A stretch of 35,506 bases of DNA from Bacillota bacterium (GCA_012523945.1 JAAYSO010000034.1:1-35506), one strand, 5' to 3'; positions 15,441 through 18,735 are shown, numbered from the stretch's first letter. Translations and numbers: made by a program. The notes: generated from the sequence alone by a model not told the origin.

Positions 15441-15476
15441 AAGGCATACCTGTCAAGGCATGCCTTCATTGTTTTT
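15441..15476 (+). terminator. Rho-independent terminator after the tandem P-loop ATPase
   Basis: AAGGCAT (15441-15447) pairs with ATGCCTT (15460-15466), with an inner CCT/AGG pairing and GTCA loop, then CATTGTTTTTATTTTT. The T-run overlaps the last codons of the convergent gene. Confidence 0.7.
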
Positions 15477-16017
15477 ATTTTTGCGGAATTTCATCCGCTA
15501 TGGTTGCTTGTGTGTTTTCTATAATAATTTGGTCTAATGCATTTCCTTTTTTATCAACAAAATTCCAAGTTACTATTCCTTCCTCCAGCATAACTTGTGC
15601 CGCCGGTAAAGTTATCACCTGGTAGTGATCCCGTTTAGGGTTGACACGCACTTGCACAGTGAGTTGCCCCTCATCCACATTTTGCAGCTTTACATCCTGG
15701 ACTTCAGCGTGTAAAGCAAACAATGCCACTTCATGCTGCGGCTGGAAAGGATAATTGGGCAGGTTTACCGACCAGTCTTCTGCAATTTGAGCCCAGCTTT
15801 CACCGTCTACTGCCAGGCGGAAAGTAGGAGTATCCTTCCTTTCGCCTTTATCAGCGGTAGTGAAGCTCACCTCACTAGTTTTGGCAGCTTCTTCCGGCGC
15901 TACAGTAGGGCTGGCCCGGAAGGAATCATATACCGACAGCGACACCAGGAGCACCAGGAGGAATAGCAGCGGCAAAAGCCGACGCGCTTCCACCACAAAC
16001 ATTTTATTCTTGGCCAT
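15475..16017 (-). CDS. Membrane-anchored protein of unknown function
   Basis: 180-residue product. The N-terminus is basic (MAKNKMFVVEARR), followed by one helix (residues about 14-31, LLPLLFLLVLLVSLSVYDSF) and an extracytoplasmic domain. The latter has alternating strands (FRLAVDGESWAQIAEDW, GQLTVQVRVNPKRDHYQVI, TLPAAQV) that recall, loosely, the PrcB-like fold; this is not a firm match. The ATG at 16017 follows GAGGTGGAAAAGG; an upstream start at 16056 would put 13 charged residues ahead and is less likely. It is divergent from the histidine kinase gene, with a 160-base gap that holds no promoter I can call with confidence. Confidence 0.75.
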   Translation of the reverse strand: MAKNKMFVVEARRLLPLLFLLVLLVSLSVYDSFRASPTVAPEEAAKTSEVSFTTADKGERKDTPTFRLAVDGESWAQIAEDWSVNLPNYPFQPQHEVALFALHAEVQDVKLQNVDEGQLTVQVRVNPKRDHYQVITLPAAQVMLEEGIVTWNFVDKKGNALDQIIIENTQATIADEIPQK

Positions 16018-16177
16018 CCTTTTCCACCTCTCTTCCGCCTGTCTTTTCCAATTCAATCCTATTCGGCAAGTACCAAAAATATGTCTTTGTTTTTGAAAAT
16101 CTTGGACACGCCCACAAGGGATAACGCTTTAAACTGTTGAAATAATTAAGCAGCTAAGATAAAAATAGGTGAAAGAT

Positions 16178-17308
16178 ATGAATAACCTCACAGATTTTCT
16201 TATGAAACATTTTTTTGCGGAACGCTCTTTTTCTCCCCTGGTGAAAATTTCAGTTTTCCTGGCAACATTAATTTTTTCTTTTATTTTCATTTATCTGATT
16301 TTTCTTAATCACTTTTCTACAGCCGAAGCCCGCCTTATTCTTTATATCTTTTATCTCATCATTTTTTACGGCACCTTTTTTTGTGGCTTTTGGCCGGGAT
16401 TTTTGCTGGCAACCATCTGCAGCATACCGGCAATTAAAGTCATAGGAGCAAATTTTCTGCAACATGGCTTTATCACCGCGTCTGATATGGAAATCCTCCC
16501 CTTTGTCGCTTTTTATTATTTAGTTGCCATCGCTGTGGACTGGTTCCGCGTTATTATTGAAAGACTGAAATCACAGTTGGAAGAAAATAAACGTCTGAAC
16601 GAACAAACACGGCAGATGGAAAAACTGGTTCTGGCCGGGGAAATTGCCGCCGGCATTGCCCACGAAATCAGAAACCCGCTTACGGTAGTCCAAGGCTATA
16701 TCCAACTGCAAGCCGCCAAACATAAACATGAGCAAAATGAAAGCGCAACATATGCTTTAATTCTGTCTGAACTTAAACGGGCCAATCAGATTATTAGCGA
16801 ATTTTTAAATTTCAGTCGCCCGCACCAGCCGTCAAAAAAGCCGATCCAGCTTACTGAAATTATTAAAACTACAATCTCTTTAATGTCTGCCGAATCGCAG
16901 GTCCGGAACATAGAAATTCTTCTCCAAAGCAAAGAACTTCCGTTCATAAATGCAGACCCGGGTCAGATGATACAGGTATTTATGAACCTTTTTACCAATG
17001 CCATGCAGGCCATGCCTGATGGGGGAAAAATTACTGTTGAAACCGGCTACAGTACAGAAGAAGACCAAATCATTATTCACATCCATGACACCGGTCACGG
17101 TATCCCGCAAGAAAGTTTGGAGCGCATTTTCACACCTTTTTTCACCACAAAAGACCATGGAACCGGGCTGGGGCTTTGGATGACACAAGCTATAATCCTG
17201 GCACACGGTGGTCTGATTGATGTTACAAGTTCACAACAAGGTACCACATTTACAGTTGTCCTGCCTGTAGAGCAACAGGATATTCTGCCTATCTTCCCCC
17301 CAAATTAA
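16178..17308 (+). CDS. Membrane sensor histidine kinase, KinB/sporulation-kinase type
   Basis: 376-residue kinase. About four hydrophobic helices fill residues 18-128, without an obvious extracytoplasmic sensor domain; a coiled linker (about 128-150) leads to the HisKA domain. The H-box AGIAHEIRNPLTVVQGYIQL has the phosphorylated His at 162. The HATPase_c domain has the N-box QVFMNLFTNAMQAMPDGG, G1 HDTGHGIP, the F-box FTPFFTTK and G2 GTGLGLWM. The HEIRNPLT-V-GF/Y-QL pattern is that of KinA-KinE kinases feeding Spo0A, unlike the GHKL/HPK10-type AgrC. Start ATG 16178 (AGGTGAAAGAT ahead); a GTG at 16169 is possible. First gene of the agr-type locus. No response regulator lies nearby. Confidence 0.92.
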   Translation: MNNLTDFLMKHFFAERSFSPLVKISVFLATLIFSFIFIYLIFLNHFSTAEARLILYIFYLIIFYGTFFCGFWPGFLLATICSIPAIKVIGANFLQHGFITASDMEILPFVAFYYLVAIAVDWFRVIIERLKSQLEENKRLNEQTRQMEKLVLAGEIAAGIAHEIRNPLTVVQGYIQLQAAKHKHEQNESATYALILSELKRANQIISEFLNFSRPHQPSKKPIQLTEIIKTTISLMSAESQVRNIEILLQSKELPFINADPGQMIQVFMNLFTNAMQAMPDGGKITVETGYSTEEDQIIIHIHDTGHGIPQESLERIFTPFFTTKDHGTGLGLWMTQAIILAHGGLIDVTSSQQGTTFTVVLPVEQQDILPIFPPN

Positions 17309-17327
17309 TTTACGAAAGGAGTGTACC

Positions 17328-17804
17328 ATGGAAACTATGCCTGTCATTACGCTGGCTCTGCTCGCCTTTCCCGAAGGAATTTTAGCCCCGTCTCTAGGGC
17401 TGGTGCTTCTTGGCCAAAAACCTCGCCTTAAAACAGCAGTATTGATCGGTTTAATTTACATGGTAGGGGCTTTTATAGCCCGGCGTCTTCTGTTGTACGG
17501 TCTTCATAGCATTGGCTTACTTGTGCTTGTAGTTTTTATAATTTTGCACTTTTATAATTTACCGTTAAAAGCTGCCTGCGCCGCCAGTATCATTGCCTAT
17601 GCCTTTATCATCTTGGGTGAATCCCTGACTCTTCCCTTATTTATGCGCATTTTTTCCGTAACGATTGAAGAAATTTTAGCCGATACCTGGTTGCGGGTAG
17701 CCGCATCTTTGCCGAATCAGATTCTTCTCCTGCTTGTTTTTTGCTGCACTTACTACATTCGCGGCTTTCACAAAAAAAATACTAAAAACATGTTAATTAA
17801 TTAG
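17328..17804 (+). CDS. Polytopic membrane protein, possible stand-alone sensor domain of the agr-type locus
   Basis: 158-residue protein that is almost entirely membrane-embedded, with five to six hydrophobic segments (for example VITLALLAFPEGILAPSLG, AVLIGLIYMVGAFIA, IGLLVLVVFIILHFYNL, QILLLLVFCCTYYI), ending in a short basic tail. The outline (a glutamine-lysine-proline loop after helix 1; a LADTWLRVAASLPNQ segment before the last helix) resembles, from memory, the N-terminal input domain of kinases in agr loci of Peptococcaceae, here as a separate protein. It has no kinase domain. AAAGGAGTG precedes the ATG. It lies 19 bases after the kinase and 11 before agrB, so it is surely co-transcribed. 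Its function is inferred from position. Confidence 0.8.
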   Translation: METMPVITLALLAFPEGILAPSLGLVLLGQKPRLKTAVLIGLIYMVGAFIARRLLLYGLHSIGLLVLVVFIILHFYNLPLKAACAASIIAYAFIILGESLTLPLFMRIFSVTIEEILADTWLRVAASLPNQILLLLVFCCTYYIRGFHKKNTKNMLIN

Positions 17805-17815
17805 GGTTGGTAATA

Positions 17816-18418
17816 ATGAAAAAGTTTGTTAATTATCTGACTCGTGAATTGCAGTTGAGTGAAGAAAAAAGTGAAATCATCGAGTATGGACTTTTTTCCC
17901 TGCTTTATTCATGGCTGAGTATTTTCACAGCCCTGGTTTTAGGCGCCCTGTTTGGTCTCTGGCAAGAAACTATTGCCATCATGTTTATGGTCATGCTGTA
18001 CCGTAAGGTGAGCGGCGGGGCTCATATCGGTACTCCATTAGGCTGTTTAATTACCGGCACCGCCGCAATTTTATTGCTTGCCTCTTTCACCTCTGTCTTT
18101 GGTCCCAAACTTGCCGGCAATTTAATTTTTGCTATTCTGTCTCTGGCCATTACTTTCATCATCGCTTATATATGGGTCCCTGCAGACGTTCCGCAAAAAC
18201 CAATTACAGACCCTCAACAAATAAAAAAACTGCGGGCCCTTTCCTTTTGCCTCATATTGGCCTGGGGACTCGCAGGAATTTTCCTTTTTTGGCGTAGTCA
18301 GCAGTTTGCTTACTATTATTTTGCCGGAAATCTGGGCCTTTTATGGCAGTCATTTTTGTTAACCCCGCCCGGCTACAGCTTCACCGCCTATCTTGACCGC
18401 TTTTTTGTAAAAAAATAA
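17816..18418 (+). CDS. agrB: AgrB-family autoinducer-peptide processing protease
   Basis: 200-residue integral membrane cysteine endopeptidase that cleaves and cyclises AgrD-type pro-peptides. The signature RKVSGGAH (catalytic His70) and Cys77 in GTPLGCL keep the His-X6-Cys spacing of staphylococcal AgrB (His77/Cys84). The WVPADVPQKPI motif in the central loop is also diagnostic. Four to six hydrophobic helices follow. The ATG at 17816 is preferred to the TTG at 17807; the ribosome binding site is weak (AGGG about 12 bases upstream), suggesting coupling to the preceding gene. The agrD-like gene follows 73 bases later. Confidence 0.95.
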   Translation: MKKFVNYLTRELQLSEEKSEIIEYGLFSLLYSWLSIFTALVLGALFGLWQETIAIMFMVMLYRKVSGGAHIGTPLGCLITGTAAILLLASFTSVFGPKLAGNLIFAILSLAITFIIAYIWVPADVPQKPITDPQQIKKLRALSFCLILAWGLAGIFLFWRSQQFAYYYFAGNLGLLWQSFLLTPPGYSFTAYLDRFFVKK

Positions 18419-18491
18419 ATAGGAATAGAAGGATTTTCCAAGTCTGTATGGAATTATTTACAATAATGAACACAAAAAGGAGGCATTGGGA

Positions 18492-18617
18492 ATGAAAAGA
18501 AAATTGTTAGCCTTAATTGCCGCCCTGCTGGCATTTGTCGCTTTCAGCGGTGCTGCTTCAGCCTGCTGGGGTACTTTGTACCAGCCCGAGCTGCCTAAAG
18601 CTTTAAGAAAAAAATAA
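18492..18617 (+). CDS. agrD: AgrD-like cyclic lactone autoinducer peptide precursor
   Basis: 41-residue peptide preceded by AAAGGAGG 8 bases before the ATG, too short for ordinary ORF cut-offs. Layout fits the cyclic lactone autoinducer family: a basic, hydrophobic N-terminal helix (MKRKLLALIAALLAFVAF), a small-residue stretch (SGAASA), then the putative autoinducer core CWGTL (Cys25 to Leu29), then the charged tail YQPELPKALRKK, which resembles the PE-P-x-L recognition tail of AgrD peptides cut by AgrB. The predicted signal is a five-residue thiolactone ring, possibly with upstream residues; exact ends are unknown. Last gene of the locus. Confidence 0.88.
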   Translation: MKRKLLALIAALLAFVAFSGAASACWGTLYQPELPKALRKK

Positions 18618-18628
18618 GCCTGGCTTAT
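18614..18628. repeat. Perfect inverted repeat over the agrD stop codon
   Basis: ATAAGCC-T-GGCTTAT, a 15-base palindrome with a single central base, overlapping the stop codon at 18615-18617. It could be a DNA-binding site or part of an mRNA end structure; the true terminator is downstream. Confidence 0.45.
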
Positions 18629-18681
18629 ACTTATCACTGAAATTTGCAGAATATACAGAATAGGCGGACTTTTTACCTCCT

Positions 18682-18735
18682 CCACCTTGTGCCGGAAACT
18701 TTTACTTCCGGCACAAGGTGGAATTATTTTTTTAT
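18682..18735 (+). terminator. Strong rho-independent terminator of the agr-type locus
   Basis: A perfect 16-base stem: 18682-18697 (CCACCTTGTGCCGGAA) with 18706-18721, and an 8-base loop, then AATTATTTTTTTATT. The T-run overlaps the last codons of mtaB on the other strand. On the minus strand no T-run follows, so mtaB may use it only weakly. Confidence 0.92.

Follow-up and report, generated by a model that had tools for sequence, protein, structure and literature searches.

The window, a 35,506-nucleotide stretch of DNA from a Bacillota bacterium, contains a four-gene unit that is most likely a sporulation-coupled variant of agr in which the receptor is detached from its kinase. The unit encodes a HisKA-type histidine kinase, a 158-residue membrane protein that we refer to as M158, AgrB, and AgrD. 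This system is not locus specific; it is one form of a phylum-wide M158 module. The larger finding is a detachable receptor with exchangeable outputs, and the idea of a link to sporulation is now better supported than it was from the window alone. The features of the unit, numbered from the first letter of the window, are listed below.

16115..16146, + strand: CAAGGGATAACGCTTTAAACTGTTGAAATAAT, a degenerate version of the sigma-H-like site that precedes the kinase; in relatives this site reads AGGA-N17-GAA and includes TGTCGAA
16178..17308, + strand: HisKA-HATPase_c kinase, 376 aa, recognized by profile matches
17328..17804, + strand: M158, a 158-aa five-helix membrane protein outside all curated families; proposed detached AIP receptor
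17816..18418, + strand: AgrB, 200 aa, with H70 and C77 (PF04647 match, alignment)
18430..18454, + strand: AGGATTTTCCAAGTCTGTATGGAAT, a sigma-H-like promoter for agrD that in relatives is immediately preceded by a Spo0A box
18492..18617, + strand: AgrD, 41 aa (TIGR04223 match)
18681..18722, + strand: strong terminator, a 17-pair stem followed by T's, between agrD and the convergent mtaB

The genes are closely spaced, with gaps of 19, 11, and 73 bp between the kinase, M158, AgrB, and AgrD. The original prediction, made from the sequence of the window, had described these four genes, their order, their placement on the + strand, and the terminator, all of which we confirmed (the kinase, AgrB, and AgrD by profile matches). 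It had also proposed a search for this gene order in other genomes, and that search recovered kinase-M158-AgrB-AgrD in 7 relatives. Because the identical four genes recur in identical order in these 7 related genomes, their arrangement did not arise by chance; Bacillota and Dethiobacter metagenome-assembled genomes are among the carriers of the unit, which suggests a Dethiobacter-like spore-former as the source of the window. The window belongs to a draft genome of 2.08 Mb that is 96.7% complete and has one copy of AgrB, at this locus. The absence of a GHKL-type AgrC and a LytTR-type AgrA, previously noted at the locus, extends to the whole 96.7%-complete assembly: LytTR matches number 0, and the assembly has no AgrC-type GHKL kinase, its 3 marginal GHKL matches being ordinary HisKA kinases. 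The single SPOB_a match in the genome is Spo0B. Receiver-domain matches number 17 in the genome. The list of ORFs in the window includes no receiver gene, and the kinase is therefore an orphan.

Profile searches place HisKA (E 6e-13) and HATPase_c (E 9e-26) domains in the kinase, with H162 as the phospho-acceptor. Its N-terminus comprises about four transmembrane helices joined by short loops, and an extracellular sensor domain is absent from the predicted structure. The domain profile search found no PAS domain in the window kinase; KinB is likewise without a PAS mark in Table 1 of a survey of sporulation kinases (PMC6136694). The description of the kinase as KinB-like, offered in the original prediction, holds at the level of contact residues, where the window kinase has TVGYQL and is identical at 5 of 6 positions to the TVGFQL of KinB (positions as in PMC6136694). 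It does not hold overall, as AtoS (258 bits) and ZraS (227) score above KinD (185) among the NCBIfam models, all of them far under their cut-offs. The pattern reported for KinA to KinE and most D. acetoxidans orphan kinases is T[AVSGT]GFQ[LIMF], and direct-type kinases of C. acetobutylicum have NVSAQV, NISAQL, and SVGLQL (PMC6136694). Among agr-linked HisKA kinases of two other families, f98 and f11, we observed STGFQL, TTGFQL, TSGFQL, and TTGFQI. AtoS/NtrC-type kinases have the H-box and much of the contact-residue pattern in common with this class. The contact residues support Spo0F as the probable target of the kinase, with a pattern that is not exclusive to the phosphorelay class.

Spo0A, Spo0B, and Spo0F are all encoded in the genome of the window. 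The spo0F gene, whose product matches B. subtilis Spo0F at 43%, lies between pyrG and fba, the same place as in B. subtilis. The spo0B gene lies between those for L27 and Obg, a position used as a criterion in earlier work (PMC6136694). It had been proposed that a cyclic peptide gates sporulation by way of Spo0A directly. The link to sporulation is supported on three independent grounds, namely the phosphorelay genes, the contact residues, and the sigma-H-type promoters with Spo0A boxes in relatives. The word "directly" does not stand: direct action on Spo0A is disfavored because the genome encodes Spo0F and Spo0B and the kinase has phosphorelay-type contact residues, and we consider Spo0F a more likely output of the kinase than Spo0A itself. 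The same genome (G000) encodes a second orphan-looking kinase, with a PAS-PAS-HisKA architecture and the contact residues TVGYQM (L077:2494-3933, - strand), which is a candidate for a further sporulation kinase.

The promoter regions of the unit also point to sporulation. Upstream of the kinase, relatives have the motif AGGR-N17-GAA, which is the sigma-H consensus and whose GAA usually lies within TGTCGAA; the motif is present in 10 of 12 such regions and at 3 of 101 other starts in the family loci (p 3e-10). This value treats kin sequences as independent and serves only as an indication; more weight belongs to the two checks described below, on spo0A and spo0F and on other families. The exact sequence TGTCGAA, which is also the Spo0A box, occurs upstream of the kinase in 6 of 12 regions and at 0 of the 101 other starts. 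We rejected the reading of TGTCGAA at this position as a Spo0A box alone, as its spacing and variants better fit the -10 element of a sigma-H promoter; from their sequence, we read the sites upstream of the kinase as sigma-H promoters that often also fit a Spo0A box. The divergent gene at 15475-16056 was rejected as the owner of the kinase-promoter motif, since sites that are empty of the unit are without it. A separate inverted motif, ATATGTCC...GGACA (window 16056-16120), lies near the start of that divergent gene, is kept in empty sites too, and is likely a regulatory site of the divergent gene.

A second sigma-H-like promoter is found in the agrB-agrD gap in 6 of 8 family members, the window among them, and a TGTCGAA box stands just before the agrD promoter in the gaps of 7/7 relatives. 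The pattern AGGAWWW...GAAT is clear in the relatives and before the window's agrD, which retains AGGATTT...ATGGAATTA, and it is degenerate before the window's kinase, where the promoter score is 1.7 (a value that about 20% of background starts reach) and the spacing is 22 instead of 21. TGTCGAA is absent from the window at both the kinase and the agrD sites. Judging from the degenerate kinase promoter and the missing TGTCGAA, regulation of the window's unit may be weakening. As a control, we applied a sigma-H matrix built from 10 such family sites to the genome of the window, in which spo0A scored 17.7 and spo0F 7.8, and nothing was found for spo0B; spo0A and spo0F are classical sigma-H genes. 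When the matrix was applied to M158 operons from other families, none of which had any part in its construction, 24 of the 43 that pair M158 with a non-GHKL partner exceeded the 95% background level, as did 6 of the 34 that pair it with GHKL. We regard sigma-H timing of the unit as highly probable in the family and are less sure of it in the window itself.

M158 of the window belongs to no Pfam or NCBIfam family, and we found no description of it among open-licence papers. Assignment of its relatives to such families was rejected, the only two single weak matches being taken as chance. Three M158 residues, P15, E16, and E98, are invariant, and three more, G58, H60, and P129, come close to it. 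AlphaFold2 predicts, with confidence, a membrane-helix bundle (pLDDT 94, pTM 0.84); comparison with solved structures gave no sequence match and a best fold match at E 0.44 and TM 0.30. An M158-type domain forms the N-terminus of GHKL kinases of 430-500 aa in agrBD loci, and elsewhere in such loci an M158-type gene adjoins a separate GHKL kinase of ~285 aa; by Pfam, the examined GHKL cases have SPOB_a/GHKL domains and adjacent LytTR regulators. For one fused M158-GHKL kinase (L043), the best PDB match is S. aureus AgrC, with only the kinase part aligning. Because the domain forms a kinase N-terminus in certain agr loci but has a gene of its own elsewhere, M158 is best read as a detachable sensor, and it looks like an AgrC sensor module that has been detached from its kinase. 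The original prediction had offered the 158-residue protein as a receptor or receptor partner; its fusion and adjacency with AgrC-like kinases beside agrBD support the role of receptor module.

The signal-producing half of the unit resembles that of other agr systems. AgrB matches PF04647 (E 9e-37), and all 15 AgrB proteins that we aligned share its H70 and C77. AgrD matches TIGR04223 above the family cut-off (E 5e-14); its ring is predicted to be C25-W-G-T-L29 (codons 18564-18578), and YQPELP comes next. The pattern [C/S]-x4-[YH]-x-P-x-x-P was seen in 72/72 AgrD sequences, with the final P in 71, and these sequences comprise 69 distinct rings. The ring residue is Cys in 45 of the 72 and Ser in 27; those with Ser, for which a lactone is predicted instead of a thiolactone, include AgrD of L041, L053, L174, and the family f20 loci (L154-L163). 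The mature peptide of C. thermocellum was determined by mass spectrometry as a five-residue ring, S25-F29, ahead of Y30 and P35 (PMC5322536). As the corresponding positions in the window's AgrD are C25-L29, Y30, and P35, the match to C. thermocellum AgrD makes a CWGTL thiolactone, a cyclic pentapeptide of the kind already put forward in the original prediction, the best prediction for its product.

We compared the site between mtaB and gene 15475-16056 in 20 genomes of the family. The full unit is present in 8, with the order kinase-M158-AgrB-AgrD in 8/8 of the agr-bearing genomes; the kinase stands alone in G080 and G082; and the site is empty in G083, G072, G073, G074, G084, and G085. The other 4 genomes were left unassigned because their contigs end at the site; G078 and G079 show the kinase alone there, and G081 and G075 appear to lack the unit. 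Because the full unit lies on both sides of the family root in the mtaB tree, some inner branches of which are weak, the simplest reading of these sequences is that the unit is ancestral, that it was lost as a whole in several lineages, including that of G083 from the same genus as the window's bacterium, and that agr alone was lost twice. Conservation of the kinase without agrB/agrD, which the original prediction had named as evidence against it, was thus seen in part, in G080 and G082, and the kinase must have some agr-independent role there. In none of the 20 genomes did we observe the opposite case, agr unaccompanied by the kinase. Agr therefore appears to rely on the kinase to a greater degree than the kinase relies on agr.

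Starting from the observed gene content, conservation, promoter motifs, phosphorelay genes, and sensor-kinase fusions elsewhere, we infer the following chain of events, from the structure of the peptide through its binding by M158 and the contact of M158 with the kinase to phosphotransfer. AgrB would process and export AgrD, releasing a cyclic pentapeptide thiolactone whose sequence is probably cyclo-CWGTL; that AgrBD make such a peptide is likely. M158, as the equivalent of the AgrC sensor domain, would bind the cyclic peptide in the membrane, a step that we hold to be quite probable. Acting as a separate subunit, M158 would then switch the four-helix orphan HisKA kinase, whose membrane part has short loops and no sensor domain; we consider this step nearly as probable. 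The kinase would phosphorylate Spo0F, with the phosphoryl group passing through Spo0B to Spo0A, and here the balance tips only modestly in favor. Since in the family sigma-H-type promoters with Spo0A boxes precede both the kinase and agrD, expression of the unit probably begins as sporulation sets in and is probably subject to feedback. The chain as a whole, a sporulation-linked agr with its receptor on a separate gene, we judge somewhat better than even, taking its steps to be strongly correlated.

We weighed this chain against other readings of the locus. The unit could consist of two adjacent and functionally separate modules, one an orphan sporulation kinase with a signal of its own, the other M158-agrBD with a receptor elsewhere and M158 aiding processing or export. 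G080 and G082, which keep the kinase and a similar promoter at the same site without agr, fit this arrangement, as do the agr part's own sigma-H-like promoter before agrD and the nearly constant adjacency of M158 and AgrB. However, M158 occurs fused to kinases, agr without the kinase was never found in the family, the genome offers no GHKL/LytTR partner, and the order HisKA-M158-AgrB-AgrD recurs with a different kinase N-terminus, so that we regard two separate modules as unlikely.

A similarly low probability attaches to the reading in which M158 and the kinase do form a receptor but its output is an unlinked regulator, AtoC/NtrC-like or other, with sigma-H setting only stationary-phase timing. 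Although the best NCBIfam similarities of the kinase are to AtoS and ZraS, the genome has its 17 receiver-domain matches, and the GGDEF/HD-GYP partners in other families imply that a Spo0 output is not obligatory, the kinase is an orphan with phosphorelay-type contact residues, its relatives have Spo0A boxes, and the phosphorelay is complete. Decay of the window's copy into a remnant of the ancestral unit that no longer signals is very improbable: the four reading frames are intact, key residues are conserved, and agrD retains a good sigma-H-like promoter, even though G083 and several near relatives have lost the entire unit and the window's kinase promoter is degenerate and has no Spo0A boxes.

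As a sporulation-linked agr, the unit can be placed among known systems. It has in common with classical agr (agrBDCA of S. aureus; fsr, lam, and VirSR-coupled agr) the H/C pair of AgrB, a five-residue AgrD ring, a PxxP tail, and a polytopic sensor module, and it differs in having the sensor on its own gene, a HisKA kinase in place of GHKL, no LytTR regulator, and sporulation-type promoters. Rap-Phr of Bacillus likewise brings a peptide pheromone into the phosphorelay and has a pheromone gene with its own promoter, which for Phr genes is a sigma-H promoter; Phr, a linear peptide, is imported and targets a phosphatase inside the cell, whereas the window's system is proposed to use a cyclic peptide and a membrane receptor. 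KinA to KinE and Dtox_1918 of D. acetoxidans (PMC6136694) are also orphan HisKA kinases with T-x-G-[FY]-Q-L, alongside Spo0F, Spo0B, and Spo0A; unlike them, the window's kinase is without PAS and is co-encoded with a peptide pheromone system. The unit also resembles clostridial agrBD without agrCA, such as C. difficile Agr1, whose peptide affects sporulation and whose AgrD1 receptor is described as unidentified (PMC10602386), and C. thermocellum Clo1313_2818, whose ring occupies the same AgrD positions (PMC5322536), but the window's unit itself encodes a candidate receptor and kinase. The unit makes it possible to test directly by what route agr peptides act on Spo0A in spore-forming anaerobes: a single operon brings together a candidate receptor, a phosphorelay-type kinase, and sigma-H/Spo0A-box control, in hosts with an intact phosphorelay.

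Using M158 by itself as the query, we recovered it from 24 of the 98 genomes in its class; with a profile, relatives turned up in 153 of the 398 genomes that represent the phylum. Their open frames are mostly about 150-210 aa, or 430-500 aa with a GHKL kinase as the remainder. AgrB lies within 3.5 kb on the same strand in 74 of 84 inspected loci chosen by M158 alone, a set made up mostly of the best-scoring loci, so that its proportions do not stand for those of the phylum. We distinguish three classes of partner, and Pfam confirms examples of each: a GHKL kinase, fused or adjacent; a HisKA kinase, which in some loci also has PAS/GAF domains and a receiver; and a GGDEF + HD-GYP protein whose N-terminus is a membrane part. 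A common origin of that membrane part and the N-terminus of the window's kinase is not supported (hhalign probability 20%). The order HisKA-M158-AgrB-AgrD recurs in family f98, in which the N-terminus of the HisKA kinase is different. A broader proposal, to which we give even weight for and against, is that M158 is a portable, separate-subunit receptor for cyclic peptides with GHKL+LytTR, HisKA-to-Spo0, or GGDEF/HD-GYP (c-di-GMP) outputs in spore-forming Bacillota, that the non-GHKL forms are mostly run by sigma-H, and that agr peptides are widespread sporulation-stage pheromones. A search of open-licence papers turned up no account of AgrBD paired with either GGDEF/HD-GYP or a phosphorelay kinase. 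Should M158 prove to be a free-standing receptor and to drive c-di-GMP enzymes as well, agr would have a much greater modularity than the AgrC-AgrA scheme implies.

Several M158 loci deserve separate mention. M158-AgrB-AgrD followed by a membrane GGDEF + HD-GYP protein is found in families f2, f3, f4, f6, f40, and others (e.g., L044, L047, L053, and L167), and these loci are candidates for a direct link from agr peptide to c-di-GMP. Tandem M158 genes accompany a single agrBD, with three in a row in L035:6309-7834 (+ strand) and further cases in L044, L047, L052, L164, L175, and L183. M158 and AgrB adjoin at NZ_CP061968.1:14006-15065, a 27-kb record labeled as a Klebsiella pneumoniae plasmid that is probably a contaminating Bacillota contig. 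In G093, the start of agrB and the end of agrD seemingly form a single frame of 51 aa next to M158 and a hybrid kinase (L054:4994-5149, - strand), which appears to be an internal deletion and a natural case of decay in the signal-making half.
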